24,017 nt of DNA from a virus: positions 1-24,017 of the IMG/VR virus record IMGVR_UViG_3300032293_000890, one strand, 5' to 3'. Shown piece after piece: positions 5,626 through 23,844 of this stretch. A program made the translations under genes and the position numbers. The notes under the pieces were generated by a model that searched no databases, was not told where the DNA came from, and saw only the letters and a list, made by a program, of their open reading frames with translations. The stretch's first letter is position 1. Each line of letters starts with the position of its first letter.

Positions 5626-7523
5626 TGCCAGCATTTACCGCAGCGGCGGCATTCATAGTCGCAGAAATTGGAGGTATTGCTCTCGCAGCCGCTCTTGGCT
5701 CAGCAGGACTTGCCTTTGTCACTAGTGTTGTGGCAGTTGGACTTGCCATTGGCACAGCAAGATTATTAGGTCTTACTGGTGGTGCTGGTGGAACCGCACA
5801 GGATCCAGGTGTTCGTATTCAATTTCCACCTGCTACTAATAATAAAATTCCCATTGTTTATGGAACAGTCAATACCAAAGGTGTTGTGACTGATGCTCGT
5901 ATTTCCAACGAAAACAAGACCATGACCTATGTGTTGGTTCTAAGTGAAAAAACACAGACTGGCACATTCTCAGTGGGCGAGTGCTATTGGAACGATCAAC
6001 TATTGGTATTTGATGAAGACAATGCTGAAGCACACATTGTTCGCAGTTCAATTGATCAAAACGGCCTGGGTGAAAATAATACTAACTTTAGTGGACTAAT
6101 CCGCGTGCGTGTCTACGCTGGCAGCACCAATAGCTTTGATCAGATATTTCCTCCACAGGCCACAGCCAATACTGAAAATGCCAAGACATTGCTAGGTGAA
6201 GCAAATGTTAATTACCTACTGAATGATCTAGTATTTGCTGTTGTTCAAATTGATTACAATAGCGAAAAAGGTATTACAGGACTAGGTCAGATTACATTCC
6301 AACTGAGCAACACACTGAATAATCCATCATTAGTCTGGTATGATTATCTTTCTTCAGATAGATATGGTGCTGCTATTCCTATAGCACAGATCAACACTAC
6401 TACCAGTATCAGCACTAGCAATCCACTTAGTGTTTACAATGTTAGCAATCAAATCCCACCTAATCAGTTTGCTAATGATGGCACTACTACTTCAACGCAG
6501 GCTCGTTATGTAATGAACGGTATTATTTCTACAGGTGACACTGTTAAGAATAGCATTGAAAAGATCAGTCAAGGATCTGCCTGTTGGACTACATTTGATT
6601 ACAGTCAAGGTCAGTGGAAATTGTTGAATAATCGTGCTGCCAGTGCGGGTGAATTGACTTCGGCATTTGTATTTGATGATGATAATATCATAGGCGAAGT
6701 AGGTATTACAGCCACTAACTTAGAAGATCTTTATAATCTATTAGAAGTTGAATTTGCCAGCCGTAGGATCCGCGACCAGAATGACTACTTCAAAGGTGCC
6801 ATTGACCCAGGTGAGATGAATGATCTTGAACCACCTAACACATTAAACATGCGATTAGAAATGGTCAACAATGCCTTACACGCTGCCCGCATTGGTCTAA
6901 TTGAACTAAAGCAGAGTCGTGTTGATAAGATTATTACATTCCGTGCTGACTATTCAGCCATACAGTGTGAAGCCGGCGATGTAGTTAAGATCAACAATGA
7001 TGTCTATGGCTTTGATGACAAGTTATTCCGCATTACTAAGATTCGTGAAGTTGAAGGTGAAGACGGTAGTATCACTGTTGAAGTTACAGCATTAGAATAT
7101 AATTCTTCGTTATACACTGATGAAACTCTAATTGATTCAGCAGACACTCCAGGATCGGGCATTCCTACATTTGGTGGATCAGCTACACTTCCGCCACCAA
7201 GTGCGCCTATTGTGGCTACAATTTCTACAACTACGCCTGGTTTTAGCTTAACTACTACCATTGCCCCGGGATCAACCGCAGTAGACGAACTTCAATGGTG
7301 GTATAACACAACCAGCACAGGCTCATTTAGCTACTTTGCCAACGAGTATCCACCAGGTGGCACTTATCTAGCTGGCAGCACAGTCACTGATATTGTCAGC
7401 TTGCCATTTGCGGGCACATTCCACTTCAAGGCAAGAACAGGACTAGGTGCTAGATATAGCGAACTGTCCGACTCAAGCGATCCAGGCTTTGTATGGAATC
7501 CCAACGACTACGGCGGAATCTAA
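5625..7523 (+). CDS. Tail tip attachment protein (gpJ-like)
   Basis: 632 residues. The N-terminus (residues 1-45) is a hydrophobic Ala/Gly/Val stretch like that of lambda gpI or the N-terminus of many tip proteins. Next comes a segment with IPIVYGTVNTKGVVTDARIS and MTYVLVLSE, characteristic of the central tail tip/host specificity J family (Phage-tail_3 type). A DNA-ring-like beta region follows, then a Thr/Ser/Pro-rich, fibronectin-like C-terminal part from about residue 510. It is much shorter than lambda J (over 1100 residues), and the separate fibre genes downstream probably do the receptor contact. Its stop (7521-7523) overlaps the stop of the convergent HNH gene by two bases. Confidence 0.82.
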   Translation: MPAFTAAAAFIVAEIGGIALAAALGSAGLAFVTSVVAVGLAIGTARLLGLTGGAGGTAQDPGVRIQFPPATNNKIPIVYGTVNTKGVVTDARISNENKTMTYVLVLSEKTQTGTFSVGECYWNDQLLVFDEDNAEAHIVRSSIDQNGLGENNTNFSGLIRVRVYAGSTNSFDQIFPPQATANTENAKTLLGEANVNYLLNDLVFAVVQIDYNSEKGITGLGQITFQLSNTLNNPSLVWYDYLSSDRYGAAIPIAQINTTTSISTSNPLSVYNVSNQIPPNQFANDGTTTSTQARYVMNGIISTGDTVKNSIEKISQGSACWTTFDYSQGQWKLLNNRAASAGELTSAFVFDDDNIIGEVGITATNLEDLYNLLEVEFASRRIRDQNDYFKGAIDPGEMNDLEPPNTLNMRLEMVNNALHAARIGLIELKQSRVDKIITFRADYSAIQCEAGDVVKINNDVYGFDDKLFRITKIREVEGEDGSITVEVTALEYNSSLYTDETLIDSADTPGSGIPTFGGSATLPPPSAPIVATISTTTPGFSLTTTIAPGSTAVDELQWWYNTTSTGSFSYFANEYPPGGTYLAGSTVTDIVSLPFAGTFHFKARTGLGARYSELSDSSDPGFVWNPNDYGGI

Positions 7524-7972
7524 ATATGCTGCCAGGTTCTTCGTGCTCTAATTTCATCTATAGTAAATTTAGATACTCCAAACTGGACGGCAATTAATCT
7601 ATTAGGACCGGGCAATGCTCGAATTTCTAATACTTGCTGTTCAGTCAATTTGGCACTAGAGTTGCTCGATCCTGGCGATCTTCCATGCCCGTGTCTCCCT
7701 TTTACCATCATGTCTTTATGATTGTCTTGTAGGGTTCCTAAGAACAAATGTGCTGGATTTACACAACTAGGATTATCACAAGAATGACACACAAACAAAG
7801 GTCCGGGATCAACCTTTGAACTTAGATAAAAGCTAAGTCGATGAGGCTTCCAAACACGGCCATTGAGTCTAAATTGAATTCCATATCCGTCTGAATCTTT
7901 GGCTCCTTGCCAAATCCAGCAAGAATTTGCTTTATCAACTTTGTTCCAAAACATTTGTTCTGTGTTTTTCAT
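7520..7972 (-). CDS. HNH homing endonuclease with C-terminal helix-turn-helix
   Basis: 150 residues and the only supported minus-strand gene here. The HNH_3 fold is visible: CWIWQGAKDSDGYG at 18-31, the conserved HR at 44-45, a zinc knuckle with CHSC at 62-65 and C70, then VNPAHL (H75), and GT-x-x-x-N-x-x-D at 79-87. Residues about 107-150 (KLTEQQVLEIRAL onward) form the DNA-binding helix-turn-helix common in these proteins. It sits between tail tip and fibre genes as a free-standing nuclease. Its stop overlaps the J-like stop tail to tail. A near-consensus promoter ends 5 bases before the ATG, so its mRNA is probably leaderless and made independently of the phage late genes. Confidence 0.9.
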   Translation of the reverse strand: MKNTEQMFWNKVDKANSCWIWQGAKDSDGYGIQFRLNGRVWKPHRLSFYLSSKVDPGPLFVCHSCDNPSCVNPAHLFLGTLQDNHKDMMVKGRHGHGRSPGSSNSSAKLTEQQVLEIRALPGPNRLIAVQFGVSKFTIDEIRARRTWQHI

Positions 7973-8588: not shown

Positions 8589-11198
8589 ATGACATGGGAA
8601 GTTAATATAACCACAACCGAACAGGTTGTCAATACCACAGTATCTAGTACTAATGTGGTTGTCACGCCACCTACTAATACCAGCTTCAATGTAACTAACA
8701 ATACATTCAATGTAGGGGTTACTAATACCAACACAGTATTTGACATCTACTTTGATGCTGTTCAACTTAGACTATCAGATCTCAACACCTTCTGGCGTGG
8801 CGAATGGGTATCGGGAAATGAATATATTCGCGGTGATATTGTTTCTTACAATTACAGCCTATTCTTTCTTAAAGATTTTGATGTAGACATCACAGCAGTT
8901 TATACCAGCACCATTGCTCCTATGGTTATTTCCACGGGCGTTGAGCAGGATACGGAACACTGGCAAAGACTGGTTTGGCATGAAGCACCATTTGATCACA
9001 TTGATGTGACAAATAATGCCGACATTGGTGGAACATTGAATGTTGTTAACAACACTACCATTGGCGGAACATTAGGTGTTACCAGCACCGCAACTATTGG
9101 TGGTGGATTAATCATCGGTGGTAATGGCACAATTGGCGGATCAGTTATTATTAATGGCCAAACAACCATTAACAACACTGCCACTATCGAAGAATTAATT
9201 CTTCGAAAGCCAATGAGTCAGTTAACCGTTACTAACCTGCTGACCGCAGGCAGTTTAGACATTATTGGTGGAGGTCTTACTGTTAATGGTTCAGGCCTTA
9301 CAGTTAACACAACTGCTACCTTTAATAGATCAAGTGTATTCAACAGCACCTCAACGTTTAACAACAAGGTCAATGTTAATGGCAGTGTCAATGTCACAAA
9401 TAGTTTAACCGTTGTTGATTTATTTGCTGACACAATTCAAATTGGCGGTTCGTCATCGGGTAAGCAACTTTACATCAAAGGCAACACATTACTTGATGGC
9501 CAATTAGATGTTACCGGACGTGTTAACTTTTTTAACACAGTTACCCTATCTAGCACATCGACATTAAGTGTCAATGGCATCGCTAACTTTAACAATCTTA
9601 GAGTTAACGGAACGTTAGACGTTTACAATACCGCAACATTCCACAATACCAATACTTTTGTTAAGAACATATTTGTTGATAATAATCTAGTTGCTGGTGA
9701 TGTTTATTATCCAACCGATAAAGGATTAAACACACAGTTCTTAATGACCGACGGTATCGGCAATGCTTCTTGGCAATATCTAGGCGTTGGAACTGTTTGG
9801 ACACTTTTCACTGATCTTACTACTCGTGGTTATAGTATTAAGAGCGGCATAACAGACAGCATTCAAAACGACCTAGCCATATTCACTGGTGGCGATCCCG
9901 ATGATCAATCAGAAAGTCCTAGTGATGCTAAGAGTCGATTAGTTCTAGGTGGAACTGGTAATATTGATTTACGTAGCGCCGGCACCGGAACCGTAACTAT
10001 AACCGCAAATGAAATTCGCAATAACGCAACGTTGGTTACTCTAGGTAATTTTAATGCGTCAGGAAACGGACTTGTTAATGAAACACTAAGTATTAAAAGA
10101 GTAAGCAAGATCGGAGCCGATCCAATTGAATTCTTAGATTCAGTAGACTTTGTAAGTCCAGTTGAATTTCAAAATTACGCAACTTTTCTTTATCCTACTT
10201 ATTTTAGAAATAATATACTTTTAGCTGAATCAAACCTATACATTCAATTCTCTGATGGAACTAAGCAATATACAGCAGCCACAGGTAGCGGTGGTGGCGG
10301 CGGCGTCACTATTGAAAATGAAGGCACCGTAGTCCTCACTACTGCTTCTGTTCTTAATTTTGTTGGCGCTGGAGTCAATGCTTCCAGTCCTAGTGCCGGT
10401 CGAGTCACGATAGAAGTTACTACTGGAACACAGGGTATTCAAGGTCCACAAGGTCCTAAAGGTGACACCGGCAATACTGGAGCATCTGGCGAAGGCAACA
10501 TTAACATGACCATGGATGGTCGTACTAATGGTTGGACTGTCTATAGTGCTTCAGGTAATACCAGCACATTCTTAAAACTCTATTCTAGTGGAATTTACGA
10601 TTTTGCCGAACTGTCAGGTGGCAAAGATGTTAGATTACTCAACGGAGTAAACAATTTTAGCATGGTGACTACCAATTCGTTGGCCACTACTGGTATTACA
10701 TCTTACGCTGGTGGCTTTACTGACATCAACAGTAGAAACGAAACGAAGATCAGCGGAAATCCTGTTACATTATTCTCTACTTCTACAATTAGTCTAGAAG
10801 CTAACACAATTAGACTAACAGCACCTAACCTCTTTATTGGGACAGGAACTGATATTATTTTACCAAGCGACCCTGTTAAGATTGGTGTTAGTAATGCTAC
10901 CAGTAATTTATGGGTTGAACGAATTTATAACAGAAGTGGTGATGGTCCTCCATTATTCCCAAGTGGTATTAGATTCGCAGATGGTACTGTTCAATTCACG
11001 GCATTTGAACCTGACAGTGGTGAATTGCCTCCACTAATTAATAACATAGGAACTGTTGTTACCGCTAGCGCAGAAAACTTCGATGCCGTAGACGCAACAC
11101 CCGCATATTTTGATGCCATTGTGGCATTGGATACGCAACACGTTTGGGTTTATACCGCATTAGGCCCAATTGATGGCTGGTTTGATGCCAGTGCTTAA
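8589..11198 (+). CDS. Large tail fibre with beta-repeats and a collagen-like tract
   Basis: 869 residues. The first 70 are Thr/Asn/Val-rich. Residues about 145-200 carry repeats of TIGGTL, TIGGGL, TIGGSV type, each a short strand and turn, and V-N-G-x-x-x-V/F-N repeats continue to about residue 370, as in trimeric beta-helical fibres. Two F-x-DGT-x-Q-x-TA motifs follow (about residues 553-565 and 797-808); this motif recurs in the next fibres. A collagen-like run of G-x-y triplets (10434-10490, GIQGPQGPKGDTG) precedes a second beta region. The C-terminus ends HVWVYTALGPIDGWFDA. TAAGGAG is the ribosome binding site. Likely a receptor-contacting or structural fibre. Confidence 0.8.
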   Translation: MTWEVNITTTEQVVNTTVSSTNVVVTPPTNTSFNVTNNTFNVGVTNTNTVFDIYFDAVQLRLSDLNTFWRGEWVSGNEYIRGDIVSYNYSLFFLKDFDVDITAVYTSTIAPMVISTGVEQDTEHWQRLVWHEAPFDHIDVTNNADIGGTLNVVNNTTIGGTLGVTSTATIGGGLIIGGNGTIGGSVIINGQTTINNTATIEELILRKPMSQLTVTNLLTAGSLDIIGGGLTVNGSGLTVNTTATFNRSSVFNSTSTFNNKVNVNGSVNVTNSLTVVDLFADTIQIGGSSSGKQLYIKGNTLLDGQLDVTGRVNFFNTVTLSSTSTLSVNGIANFNNLRVNGTLDVYNTATFHNTNTFVKNIFVDNNLVAGDVYYPTDKGLNTQFLMTDGIGNASWQYLGVGTVWTLFTDLTTRGYSIKSGITDSIQNDLAIFTGGDPDDQSESPSDAKSRLVLGGTGNIDLRSAGTGTVTITANEIRNNATLVTLGNFNASGNGLVNETLSIKRVSKIGADPIEFLDSVDFVSPVEFQNYATFLYPTYFRNNILLAESNLYIQFSDGTKQYTAATGSGGGGGVTIENEGTVVLTTASVLNFVGAGVNASSPSAGRVTIEVTTGTQGIQGPQGPKGDTGNTGASGEGNINMTMDGRTNGWTVYSASGNTSTFLKLYSSGIYDFAELSGGKDVRLLNGVNNFSMVTTNSLATTGITSYAGGFTDINSRNETKISGNPVTLFSTSTISLEANTIRLTAPNLFIGTGTDIILPSDPVKIGVSNATSNLWVERIYNRSGDGPPLFPSGIRFADGTVQFTAFEPDSGELPPLINNIGTVVTASAENFDAVDATPAYFDAIVALDTQHVWVYTALGPIDGWFDASA
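10434..10490 (+). repeat. Collagen-like G-x-y tract in fibre
   Basis: About 19 codons in which Gly recurs every third residue (GIQ GPQ GPK GDT GNT GAS G). Short collagen-like trimers act as stiff connectors in phage fibres. Confidence 0.75.
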
Positions 11199-16658: not shown

Positions 16659-16917
16659 ATGGCGTAAATGGGAAATGAATCCAATACCAACTATTGATGC
16701 CGAAAGCCTAAGCCTAGCAACACACGTTGAACTGTGTAGTGCTAGGTATAGTCAGCTGGACTCTAGACTAGGCAATCTAGAGTCAAAAATTGACAAAATT
16801 GATCAGAAAGTAGATGATTTCCGCACTGAAATGAAGAAAACACTGATCATTACAGCCGGCACAATCATCACCACTGTCATTACTACTCTAGGTGTAGTTT
16901 TAGTCAAATTACTTTGA
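16651..16917 (+). CDS. Coiled-coil protein with C-terminal membrane anchor (holin or XhlA-like candidate)
   Basis: 88 residues from TTG 16651, or 80 from ATG 16675, which I prefer (MNPIPTIDAES). Residues about 40-60 are heptad-like (LDSRLGNLESKIDKIDQKV), followed by one hydrophobic span, TLIITAGTIITTVITTLGVVLVKLL, here split as TLIITAGTIITTV and ITTLGVVLVKLL. A short coiled coil plus a C-terminal membrane segment is the layout of haemolysin XhlA-like and other phage holin-associated proteins. No endolysin is seen nearby, so a lysis role is only a candidate. Confidence 0.55.
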   Translation: MYEWRKWEMNPIPTIDAESLSLATHVELCSARYSQLDSRLGNLESKIDKIDQKVDDFRTEMKKTLIITAGTIITTVITTLGVVLVKLL

Positions 16918-16946
16918 TTTTTTCTTTGAGCCCGCTAATTAGTAGC

Positions 16947-17183
16947 ATGGACAGAGAGAAATTCAAAACTATAACCGACAAGCTGATGATGCCGTTTGAT
17001 CCCAGACGGCTAGCAGAACGCAGTCTTCCTATTGAAGAACATTGTGGTGATTGTGATCGTGTGGTCAACGGTCGCACTGTGGAATTTTATGTTCGCGGAT
17101 TTGGAACACATCGTGCCACTTGGATGAAGAAGTGCGTCAATTGTAGCAAAAAAGCACCAATATCTTCCTTCCCCGATAAATAA
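16947..17183 (+). CDS. Small zinc-ribbon protein, unknown role
   Basis: 78 residues from ATG 16947. A TTG at 16914 would add 11 hydrophobic residues and overlap the previous stop; neither start has a convincing ribosome binding site. Two CxxC pairs (C33/C36 as CGDC, C63/C66 as CVNC) separated by 26 residues form a likely zinc ribbon. The segment before the second pair is YVRGFGTHRATWMKKC. Such small zinc proteins in phages can bind nucleic acid or host RNA polymerase, but there is no direct sign here. Its stop codon overlaps the TAAATA motif that may start the following non-coding RNA. Confidence 0.6.
   Translation: MDREKFKTITDKLMMPFDPRRLAERSLPIEEHCGDCDRVVNGRTVEFYVRGFGTHRATWMKKCVNCSKKAPISSFPDK
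17175..17182 (+). promoter_or_regulatory. TAAATA motif, copy 2 (GATAAATA)
   Basis: With T4-late spacing (-13 to -6) the start would be G17188, the first base of the 8-bp helix that opens the candidate RNA described next. Confidence 0.4.
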
Positions 17184-17187
17184 ATCT

Positions 17188-17367
17188 GAACGGGGAGTGG
17201 CATTACTTTATCTCCTTATCGACATTTCCTTAAATTCGCCCCGTTCGCCCTTGTCTATCATACTATCTTAAAGAGCGGCAATTCTTAAAAGTTAACAATC
17301 GGACAAGGTTAACCCTAGCGCAACGCTCGGGTTCGAAAAGCCTGGTGTAAGTGCCAGGCTTTTTCTT
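17188..17367 (+). ncRNA. Candidate structured small RNA (RNA1), about 180 nt
   Basis: Four stem-loops follow one another with exactly 2 bases between them. (1) GAACGGGG 17188-17195 pairs with CCCCGTTC 17239-17246. (2) CCTTGTC 17249-17255 pairs with GACAAGG 17302-17308. (3) AACCC-T-AGCG 17311-17320 pairs with CGCT-C-GGGTT 17324-17333, with one mismatch and loop CAA. (4) A 10-bp terminator stem with a T-run, 17336-17365. Loop 1 carries two CCU-rich anti-Shine-Dalgarno motifs, CTCCTTA (17212-17218) and ATTTCCTTA (17224-17232). Loop 2 holds two segments (17260-17271 and 17275-17282) complementary to 17419-17438. No ORF is present. Seen: sequences and complementarities. Inferred: that it is transcribed and regulatory. 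Confidence 0.5.
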
Positions 17368-17368
17368 T
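17336..17368 (+). terminator. Rho-independent terminator
   Basis: AAAAGCCTGG, loop TGTAAGTG, CCAGGCTTTT, then TCTTT. A 10-bp stem followed directly by a T-rich tract. The tail CTTTGGCTAAAATTCC (17365-17380) is shared with other terminators in the window. Confidence 0.85.
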
Positions 17369-17406
17369 GGCTAAAATTCCACTATTATTACCCCCTATTT
17401 TTCAAT

Positions 17407-17417
17407 TATACTAAATA
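17407..17417 (+). promoter_or_regulatory. Promoter-like TATACT overlapping TAAATA motif, copy 3
   Basis: TATACT (17407-17412) runs into ACTAAATA (17410-17417). Predicted start is 17419 if read as a -10, or about 17423 with T4-late spacing. Either places the 5' end in or at the segment complementary to RNA1. No good -35 is visible. Confidence 0.4.
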
Positions 17418-17418
17418 C

Positions 17419-18000
17419 ATTGCCGCTTAAGATAGTATTAGATATGTTAATTCAATCATACTTCTTACGCAGTGAATTAATTTAACACACAAGGTTGGCA
17501 GGCCAGATTGTAATACTGCTGTGGAAAAACTGGGGAATAAACCAGACACGTGACATATTGAAGCACTCCCGTTGCTAAGGCAACTATCCTGAAAAATTGG
17601 AAGTGAGTCTAAGGGTTCGAATCATATACCCGACGCTTTGATATAGTATGAATGTTAACATACGAAAACACTGGCTATAAAAACCCATACATTAGGAACG
17701 AGGTATGGGGCAACGAAAGTTGGATCGTGGTAGGTATGGAGAAGCACAGAACCCATTAGCATACAGTGAAACAATTACCTACTTCCATGTTCAGGCCTAG
17801 GAAACCCTCACAGAATGAACGGAACCAGTAAAACGGTTCCGTTTGACCAAAAGTTGCCCTACAGAATGCTCCCAATACACTTTACTTCAAAAGAAAAAGA
17901 AACAATTGCTATAAAAACAAAATACGAGGCAACGCGAGTATTTTGTTTATGTAGTGATTAGATCTTATTAAGATCTTACAATATAAATGAATAGTTTAAA
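17419..18000 (+). ncRNA. Candidate large structured RNA or leader (RNA2)
   Basis: No ORF of 60 codons or more on either strand. Helices read by eye: TTAATTCA 17447-17454 with TGAATTAA 17473-17480; GGCAG 17497-17501 with CTGCT 17516-17520; CACT-C-CC 17564-17570 with GG-A-AGTG 17599-17605, enclosing GTTGC/GCAAC 17571-17584; GTATG 17646 with CATAC 17659; CCCATAC 17684-17690 with GTATGGG 17703-17709; CAAC-GAAA-GTTG 17711-17722 (GNRA tetraloop); GTAGGTA 17730-17736 with TACCTAC 17776-17782; AACGGAACC 17818-17826 with GGTTCCGTT 17835-17843; AAACAAAATAC 17915-17925 with GTATTTTGTTT 17938-17948; AGATCTT 17960 with AAGATCT 17970-17976. GGGCAAC 17708-17714 can instead pair with GTTGCCC 17853-17859. It may be a free RNA or a 630-base leader of the GIY-YIG gene. 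Confidence 0.45.
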
Positions 18001-18050
18001 TTAGACTTTGTGTAAGATATCTCTTATAATAAATTATAAAGGAAAAAGTT

Positions 18051-18473
18051 ATGTTATATTATATCTACGTATTACAAAATAAAAATAGATTTTATGTTGG
18101 ATTAACCCAAGATGTTACTGGAAGATATATAAATGCTCATCTTACCGGACAGTGTATTTCAAGTAAAAAATTAGGAAATCTTCAAGATCTTAAATTGATA
18201 TATCATTGGATGTGCGATGGATATATTACAGCAAGCAAATTAGAAAGGGCAATTCATAAATTACAAATTCAACATGGCGAAGATATTGTTCTTGAATTTA
18301 TAAAACAAATGCCTCAATATACAAAAGAATATCAAACTTTAATTAATTCACAACTTCTAACAACTTCATATGAAGAAAATAAAGAAGATACTGATGATGA
18401 TGCTTATATCAATCCTTACGATATATCTGAAGATGAAGCACTTGAATTAAACGATAATCTATTCAAAATATAG
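18051..18473 (+). CDS. GIY-YIG homing endonuclease
   Basis: 140 residues. The GIY-YIG core is visible near the N-terminus: Y4-I5-Y6, Y15-V16-G17, then R25 in GRYINAH and the catalytic-type E65 in SKLERAIHKL. The core fills about residues 1-85. The rest is an acidic tail (EENKEDTDDDAYINP) with no recognised DNA-binding module, so target recognition is unclear. AAAGGAAAAA precedes the ATG. It looks more A+T-rich than the tail genes, a sign of separate origin. It lies directly downstream of the structured gene-free region, an arrangement also seen for nucleases next to mobile introns, although no intron core was found. Confidence 0.85.
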   Translation: MLYYIYVLQNKNRFYVGLTQDVTGRYINAHLTGQCISSKKLGNLQDLKLIYHWMCDGYITASKLERAIHKLQIQHGEDIVLEFIKQMPQYTKEYQTLINSQLLTTSYEENKEDTDDDAYINPYDISEDEALELNDNLFKI

Positions 18474-18481
18474 CCTAATAC

Positions 18482-18524
18482 GCCGGTTTTTCCTTCAATT
18501 AAGTAAATATAGTTGAAGGAGAAA
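18482..18524 (+). promoter_or_regulatory. Hairpin hiding the ribosome binding site, with TAAATA motif copy 4
   Basis: CCTTCAA (18492-18498) can pair with TTGAAGG (18513-18519), which includes the GAAGGAG ribosome binding site of the gene at 18529. The loop holds AGTAAATA (18502-18509). If that motif is a T4-late-type promoter the start would be G18515, giving a leader that lacks the inhibitory arm. Upstream transcripts would thus be silenced while the local transcript is translated. CCGGTTTTTCC just before it resembles 22194-22205. Confidence 0.45.
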
Positions 18525-18528
18525 CATA

Positions 18529-18951: not shown

Positions 18952-19389
18952 ATGAAACAAAAAGATCACCCATTATTCGCACGTTGGCGCTTTTGGCAGC
19001 AGGCCTGCTATAACTGTAATTGTCCTAACTATCCAGCTATAGGTGCCCGAGGCGTTCGTGTTGGGTTTGAAAACTTCTGGGCTATGGCAGATTGGGTTGA
19101 AAGTAATCTAGGCTTACCACCACTGGGCATGGGCAGTAAACTAGCACGTATCGATCAAGACGGTGACTACGAGGCAGGCAATCTACGTTGGGAAACCGGC
19201 AGTCAATTAGTAGGCCGTAGCAGTCATGCTAACATTGTAAACTATCGGGGTCGCCGCCAGTGCCTCAGTGCTTGGGCCAAAGAATTAGGATTTAACCCAG
19301 CTACTATATATAATAGAATTAACATCTATGGTTGGAGTCTTGAACGAGCATTTGAAACACCAGCCGAATCAAAGTATAAAGCCAAATGA
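18952..19389 (+). CDS. HNH/AP2-like homing-type DNA-binding protein
   Basis: 145 residues. It follows a widespread phage pattern: HPLFARWRFWQQACYN, CPNYPAIGARGVRV, F-x-x-F/W-x-x-MADWV, LARIDQDGDYEAGNLRWET, then Q and a C-terminal block (LSAWAKELGFNPATIYNRI, then GWSLERAFETP) that is a short helix-turn-helix. In relatives the RIDxDGxYxxxNxRW segment closes the HNH-like fold; several zinc or HNH residues look degenerate here, so activity is uncertain. It ends in an ATGA overlap with the next homing-type gene, forming a two-gene unit. AAGGAAAA is the ribosome binding site. Confidence 0.75.
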   Translation: MKQKDHPLFARWRFWQQACYNCNCPNYPAIGARGVRVGFENFWAMADWVESNLGLPPLGMGSKLARIDQDGDYEAGNLRWETGSQLVGRSSHANIVNYRGRRQCLSAWAKELGFNPATIYNRINIYGWSLERAFETPAESKYKAK

Positions 19390-21637: not shown

Positions 21638-21669
21638 AAAGCCACTCGCCACAGTGGCTTTTTCTTTGG
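21638..21669 (+). terminator. Rho-independent terminator
   Basis: AAAGCCACT (21638-21646), loop CGCCAC, AGTGGCTTT (21653-21661), then TTCTTTGG. Confidence 0.85.
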
Positions 21670-21680
21670 CTAAATTTTCG

Positions 21681-21710
21681 TTAGGTATAAACTAACTTCT
21701 GCGTTATACT
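21681..21710 (+). promoter_or_regulatory. Probable sigma70-type promoter before the gene at 21757
   Basis: TATACT at 21705-21710 with a weak TTAGGT 18 bases upstream. It sits just after the terminator and about 50 bases before the next start. Confidence 0.4.
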
Positions 21711-21756
21711 ATTATTACTGCGAAGGAAAAGCAGTTTAACTTAAAAGGAAATTAAA

Positions 21757-22617: not shown

Positions 22618-23844
22618 TGCCATTGACAATACCACAATTAACAATCGCGACCAGCGATAGGAGGTTCCGTGTAGCAATATGCGGAAGACGATTTTGGCAA
22701 GACACATATCAGTTTAAGAGAACTTTGTAGATTTGCCTCTAAACCAAAAAGTCGTGTGTGGTATATTGCCCCGACCCGAGGGCAAGGTAAGGGTATTGTT
22801 TGGGAACACTTAAAGGCCCGATTACAAGGGCTTCGATGGTTAAAAAAAGTAAATGAAAGTGATCTAACACTTCACCTTGTAAATGGCAGTGAGATATCAA
22901 TTAAAAGCGCAGATGCGTATGACCGAATGCGTGGATTCTCTGTTAATTTTGTGGTGTTAGATGAATTTGCTGACATGGATGAAGGCGTTTGGACTGCTCT
23001 AAGACCTACTCTAAGTGACAAGCAAGGCCACGCTTTCTTTATTGGAACACCTAGGGGTATGAGCAACTGGTCAAAAGATATGTTTGACATGAGTCTAACT
23101 AATGAAAACTGGGCTAGTTTCCAATACACTACAATTGATGGTGGGCAAGTTACTCCAGAAGAAATTGAAGCTGCTCGCAATGAAATGGATGAGCACAGTT
23201 TTAGAGAAGAGTATCTTGCCACCTTTGAATCTAAAAGCGGACGTATATTCTATGCGTTTGATCGACATCACAGTCTTAAGAAACATTCAGGAATTATTCC
23301 TAATGAAATACACATTGGCCTTGACTTTAACGTAGCAAACTTATGTGGATGTATTGCTGAAAAAACAGCCAATGGACTACATATATTTGATGAAATGAGA
23401 TTATCATCATCTAATACTGATGAAGTAGTTCAAGAAATAAGAACACGATTTCCGACACAAAAAATTATTGTTTATCCTGACCCTGCTGGTAATCAATCTC
23501 GCACCAGTGCGGGGGGCAGAACAGATCACACTATATTAAGAACAGCTGGCTTTACTGTTAAAACACACAATGTTACTAAGAGTGTGCGTGATGGTATCAA
23601 CGCAGTTAATAGTTTATTCACTAACAGCCTAGGAGAACACAGATTATTTGTAGATCCGCGCTGTCGTAATGTAATTGAAAGCATGGAGAAACACTGTTAT
23701 AAAGAAGGAAGCAATTTGCCTGATAAAGATTCAGGATTTGATCACATGTCGGATGCGCTTAGATATCTAACTGAATATCTATATCCTATTAGGCAGCTTG
23801 CTGCTCCTATGCCTATTAGACAATGGGGTCATAAAATTGGTTAA
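22617..23844 (+). CDS. terL: Terminase large subunit, apparent +1 frameshift in the P-loop
   Basis: The start ATG (22617) overlaps the small-subunit stop. The first 26 codons read MPLTIPQLTIATSDRRFRVA then ICGRRF. After CGA TTT the frame continues TGG CAA GAC and stops at TAG 22728-22730. Skipping one T in the TTTT run (22692-22695) restores GRRF-GKTHISLREL and an open frame to 23844, about 408 residues. ATPase motifs: P-loop GRRFGKT (23-29), Walker B VVLDE (D115, E116), motif III IGTPRG (about 142-147). Nuclease motifs: D236 in IGLDFNV, D288 in YPDPAGN, D375/D379 in FDHMSDALRYL. The protein is otherwise complete, so an indel in the sequence or a recent mutation is likelier than old decay; +1 ribosomal shifting is a third option. 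Confidence 0.88.

Follow-up and report, generated by a model that had tools for sequence, protein, structure and literature searches.

In the 24,017-nt IMG/VR record IMGVR_UViG_3300032293_000890 (positions 1 to 24,017, hereafter the window), a structured 3' UTR that ends in an intrinsic terminator carries in one of its loops a sequence complementary to the predicted first bases of the next transcript. As computed, this complementarity exceeds chance and starts exactly at the predicted +1 of a terminator-promoter module that is common to related phage contigs. The region is tentatively read, with a confidence somewhat short of even, as the junction at which one transcription unit of a tailed phage gives way to the next, where a 3' UTR and a 5' leader, both from the same strand, may form an antisense-like pair in trans or upon read-through.

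In the window the tail genes extend to about 17 kb and the terminase genes lie close to the right end, as judged from the ORF list and from Pfam and PHROG matches; its terminase is closest to that of the lake phage DSL-LC06 (47%), followed by those of pelagiphages (44% or less). The listed large terminase ORF starts at 22756 and its frame seems broken at 22618-22760, near the ATP-binding (Walker A) region, possibly through a sequencing error; the longer frame is intact in the sequence L037. Three free-standing homing-type endonuclease genes were recognised by Pfam or PHROG matches (HNH at 7520-7972 on the minus strand, GIY-YIG at 18051-18473 and HNH at 18952-19389, both on the plus strand), and TATAAATA, a T4-type late-promoter sequence, has two plus-strand copies outside the listed genes (21595 and 23873), which may be due to chance. 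The upstream tail gene block ends on the plus strand with an ORF at 16914-17183, the product of which is a small CxxC protein, Zn-ribbon-like, with weak similarity to an L037 protein and no Pfam or PHROG match. Between this ORF and the GIY-YIG endonuclease gene at 18051 lie 867 nt without an ORF of at least 50 codons. The part of this gap downstream of the predicted +1 (17419-18050, plus strand), ORF-free in both the ORF list and the open-stretch scan, may be read either as a non-coding RNA (RNA2) or as a 632-nt leader of the GIY-YIG gene. An ORF-free stretch of 388 nt is also present upstream of a small gene in L037 (3204-3591), with a very strong predicted structure (z = -7.7) that sequesters the ribosome-binding site.

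The MFE structure of 17188-17367 consists of four adjacent stem-loops and is more stable than expected from shuffled sequences (z = -3.7; z = -5.0 for 17188-17450). On the plus strand these are stem-loop 1 (17188-17246), stem-loop 2 (17249-17308), the loop of which carries the complementary arm A, stem-loop 3 (17311-17333) and an intrinsic terminator (17335-17370), made up of a hairpin at 17335-17364 and a T-run and found as the same module in relatives. The first-pass annotation had described four stem-loops, the last a rho-independent terminator, which the fold bears out, and a uniform spacing of 2 bases, which it does not, the spacers being of 2, 2 and 1 nt. It had further taken an RNA to begin at 17188, which found no support. 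Since no promoter-like site lies near 17188 and the first stem starts 5 nt past the stop codon of the ORF at 16914-17183, the segment 17188-17367 ('RNA1') is most readily taken for the tail operon's 3' UTR, unless it is processed.

Arm A (17252-17282, plus strand), mostly unpaired in the loop in the MFE fold of the 3' UTR, is complementary to arm A' (17419-17444, plus strand), the predicted first 26 nt or so of RNA2. According to the inverted-repeat search, ATACTATCTTAA (17260-17271) pairs with 17427-17438 and AGCGGCAAT (17274-17282) with 17419-17427, forming a core in which a 3-nt bulge separates 12 from 8 exact pairs, and to which the model fold adds six pairs (17252-17257 with 17439-17444) for a helix of 26 bp in all with two bulges. 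The match of the second loop to 17419-17438, complete apart from a 3-base bulge in the first-pass annotation, was found again and is above chance. When the full 24 kb was dinucleotide-shuffled 200 times, no shuffle contained a 12 + 8 bp pair within 300 nt, allowing a single bulge of up to 4 nt, and the duplex of stem-loop 2 with 17419-17450 (-30.5 kcal/mol) was equalled by none of the 2,958 other 32-nt plus-strand pieces tried against the same stem-loop (mean -10.3, sd 3.3). A looser scan, of every 24-nt piece against its own upstream 250 nt, places the site among the few strongest, together with others near 10462, 10882 and 19042; the pairing energy alone is not unique, and it is the placement that is remarkable. 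Pairing had been envisaged both in trans and in cis, and either is energetically favourable by computation: the trans cofold is better than the separate folds by about 10 kcal/mol, and in the read-through RNA the long helix forms with P = 0.98. The terminator hairpin also forms in the read-through RNA (P = 0.997), and since the two structures coexist, an attenuator or terminator-antiterminator switch was rejected. A length of 26 bp is suitable for RNase III, for a site of which at least about 20 bp of double-stranded RNA was required here.

Pattern searches identified behind the terminator a promoter module, TTTGGCTAAA-N31-TATACTA (17366-17413, plus strand), the -10 box of which, TATACT, is present at 17407-17412, where it had been annotated. 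With a -10 hexamer ending at -7 relative to +1, this box predicts 17419, an A, as the first base of RNA2, which is also where the complementary stretch begins. The module has a poor -35 box (ATTATT) here and a spacing of 31 against a commoner 30. The module (hairpin, T-run, GGCTAAA, 30-31 nt, TATACT) is common to related phage contigs and was reached through weak covariance-model matches in the terminators of L032, L011 and L031. When 402 kb from terminase relatives were searched by pattern, a T-run followed by GGCTA(A/T)A was found seven times, every time behind a hairpin (7/7), and a TATACTA or TATAAT box starts 30-31 nt after it in five of the seven (two in the window, two in L032 and one in L031), the L011 occurrence carrying just a shifted TACTAT. 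The -35 boxes in L031 and L032 (TTGACT, TTGCAA and TTGACT) have 17-nt spacers, as in sigma-70-type promoters. The pattern TTTGGCTAAA-N30/31-TATACTA, fixed beforehand to spacings of 30 and 31 and yielding counts that are not a random sample, occurs in the viral collection at 27 distinct places including the two of the window; 12 score as lying inside an ORF, and several of the places outside ORFs bear TTGACA-like -35 boxes. The recurrence of the module in other phages supports the earlier proposal that a second RNA starts at about 17419 behind the terminator and a promoter, the start being a predicted one and the -35 box poor. Recurrent copies, often with TTGACT or TTGACA at -35, were located at 17335-17413 and 21640-21711 of the window, at 5675 in L031, at 4708 and 5082 in L032, and near the plus-strand end of L169, which is nearly the same as the window from 21665 onward. 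The leader (+1 to +40) of each module was also compared with the RNA upstream of it, with shuffled leaders as the control. The complementarity has z = -6.2 at the 17419 junction against -1.4 or weaker in every other computable module, and therefore belongs to this junction and not to the terminator-promoter module. The common module offers, independently of the pairing, a handle for transcription-unit mapping in uncultured phages.

In the mechanism proposed here, the tail operon would end in the structured 3' UTR and its intrinsic terminator, with the next promoter directly behind. Both RNAs would come from the same strand, the complementarity being an inverted repeat and not the result of overlapping transcription. 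The released 3' UTR would pair through arm A with arm A' at the 5' end of RNA2 in trans, and a helix identical to this one would arise in cis in a read-through RNA. In both cases RNA2 would become double-stranded at its 5' end and, as we guess, probably offer RNase III a site there. Arm A' can alternatively pair with arm B (17452-17475, plus strand), which inverted repeats, folds and similarity ranking mark as an imperfect direct copy of A, in a predicted local 5' hairpin of RNA2. The A/A' pairing would open this hairpin, and the fate of RNA2 would thereby depend on expression of the upstream operon. We infer that both RNAs exist with these ends and that they pair in the cell to this effect. 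The poor -35 box, the spacing of 31 instead of 30, the alternative fold of A' on B and the lack of an ORF close behind A' speak against the A/A' pairing model. The open-stretch scan found no Shine-Dalgarno sequence followed by the start of a real ORF behind A' until 18051, and so there is no obvious translational target. The more specific proposition, in which the 3' UTR would serve as an antisense RNA acting in trans on the extreme 5' end of a non-coding transcript made from the promoter behind its terminator, is considered unlikely. If true, such a pair would constitute a compact relay reporting expression of the upstream operon, or read-through, to the next unit. If the pairing is used, the tail of an operon RNA would act on the first bases of the neighbouring transcript, in a layout that could escape notice at other terminator-promoter junctions.

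The long helix may also serve in cis only, as a processing or insulation element around the terminator hairpin of the read-through RNA, an RNase III cut within it separating the two RNAs with no regulation in trans. The high probability of the helix alongside the terminator hairpin and its suitable length favour such an element, and in icaR RNase III is known to cut paired UTRs (PMC3868564). We nevertheless regard it as somewhat unlikely, since in cis there would be no need for the complementarity to start precisely where a separate RNA is predicted to begin.

Further repeats downstream raise the possibility of a DNA-level array, in which A, A', B and B' would be copies, in alternating orientation, of a site of about 15 bp that a DNA-binding protein of the phage or the host recognises, or else pieces of promoters, and the RNA pairing would be a by-product. 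Arm B' (17636-17652, plus strand), detected by inverted repeats, duplex energies and similarity ranking, is another segment partly complementary to A, at about -20 kcal/mol, and the likeness of A to B and to the complement of B' exceeds that of 99.8% of window pieces. Near-matches to the 15-mer ATCATACTATCTTAA number 7 in the window where 1.3 are expected, a count that 0 of 100 shuffles reached. This repeat family and the excess of the 15-mer leave room for a DNA-level array; the A/A' match, however, runs 8-9 bp further past the bulge, outside the common core, and starts at the predicted +1, which makes the array distinctly unlikely as the explanation. The idea of a tandem duplication was examined by alignment of 17254-17450 with 17452-17661, which scored only about 2.3 sd above shuffled sequence.

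Relatives of the region were sought with two genes upstream of it and the one downstream, which led to L003 (IMGVR_UViG_3300033571_008880) and its copies and to one weak match, L043; the region itself is carried by L003 and its copies only. L003 is identical to the window over 17184-17768, shows a few differences in 17769-17834, of which one cluster falls in the loop of a hairpin at 17818-17843 and leaves the stem intact, and diverges from about 17868. The identity at 17184-17768 says little about constraint, because another aligned block of the two, of 7.9 kb, has only 5 mismatches. The sharp loss of similarity between window 17868-18528 and L003 4955-5110, in otherwise near-identical phages, is by alignment a mosaic or mobile junction; the GIY-YIG gene of the window is absent from L003 there, and similarity between the genes that follow is only distant. 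Searches of Rfam with the whole window, and with the gap at E up to 10, gave chance matches only (for example MicC, 25 bits against a cut-off of 90). In 50,697 phage records neither DNA similarity nor the upstream proteins of the region were found, and a search of GTDB genomes gave no match. A covariance model of 17252-17444, applied to 44 sources (490 kb), scored well only on the two known copies and on their reverse strand. The 17-mer CTTTTTCTTTGGCTAAA occurs in 75 stretches of viral contigs, many of them apparently coding, and says nothing by itself.

The region might also form the 5' domain of a single phage RNA of the GOLLD and ROOL kind, large and structured and spanning about 17188-17890, the 'terminator' then being an internal hairpin. 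A long ORF-free stretch in a phage genome is a trait of GOLLD and ROOL, and the 867 nt fold well as a whole (z = -6.9); the stretch is common to L003 up to about 17867 despite different genes behind, and in DSL-LC06 a structured gap of 755 unannotated nt occupies a comparable place. Unlike GOLLD and ROOL, the region has no Rfam match and no tRNA gene, and the terminator and promoter module interrupts it in the middle. Its 3' part folds weakly (z = -1.7 for 17440-17900 alone), 120-nt windows are mostly ordinary, and the stretch is not significantly similar in sequence to the gap of DSL-LC06, a global alignment being no better than with shuffled sequence; such a large RNA is quite improbable. 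The gap in DSL-LC06 (OR003941.1, 573-1327) has z = -5.2, a terminator-like hairpin near its end and no Rfam match. A motif common to it and the window (GTATGGAGAAG...TTACCTAC) was given up as lacking support, as 14 of 14 matches in viral contigs lie inside ORFs. Retron, intron and omega-RNA ideas were likewise dropped; Rfam gave no match, and in the genes of the window that were examined no reverse transcriptase was noticed. Chance complementarity without function is the least probable of the alternatives, for although the looser scan gives a few other places of similar upstream pairing energy and the conservation amounts to one near-identical relative, none of the 200 shuffles or 2,958 pieces matched the site, which coincides with the predicted +1.

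The first-pass annotation knew of no described phage system with this layout; the c4 RNA of phage P1 is close in logic and differs in layout. The c4 RNA of phages P1 and P7 (immI operon) acts on its target by base pairing. In P1 it is trans-acting and represses Ant synthesis (PMC8546580). As with c4, an RNA from the same strand lies upstream of its target and a loop sequence is complementary to a downstream site, the pairing being predicted here. However, c4 is processed from a transcript that also bears the target and controls translation of ant, whereas in the window the arms are separated by a terminator and a promoter, and the target site has no nearby ORF behind it whose translation it could control. 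The Rfam covariance model of c4 gave no match to the region, either at the gathering threshold or at E up to 10. The small RNAs derived from 3' UTRs include DicF, SroC and OppZ, some of which act on their own locus (PMC9438474). The window shares with them a structured 3' region of an operon mRNA with an intrinsic terminator at its end, recognised here from the sequence alone, and differs in that its arm A is complementary to the 5' end of the transcription unit that follows. In icaR of Staphylococcus aureus, the 3' UTR pairs with the 5' leader in cis or in trans to form an RNase III substrate (PMC3868564), and a 3' UTR/5' leader pairing of this kind is predicted for the window as well. The UTRs of icaR are in one mRNA and the site is a Shine-Dalgarno sequence, whereas the window would have two transcription units, a longer helix and no Shine-Dalgarno sequence in the arm. 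In logic the proposed mechanism resembles c4 and the icaR pairing; these two and the 3'-UTR-derived RNAs are taken as comparisons rather than as families to which the region is assigned.
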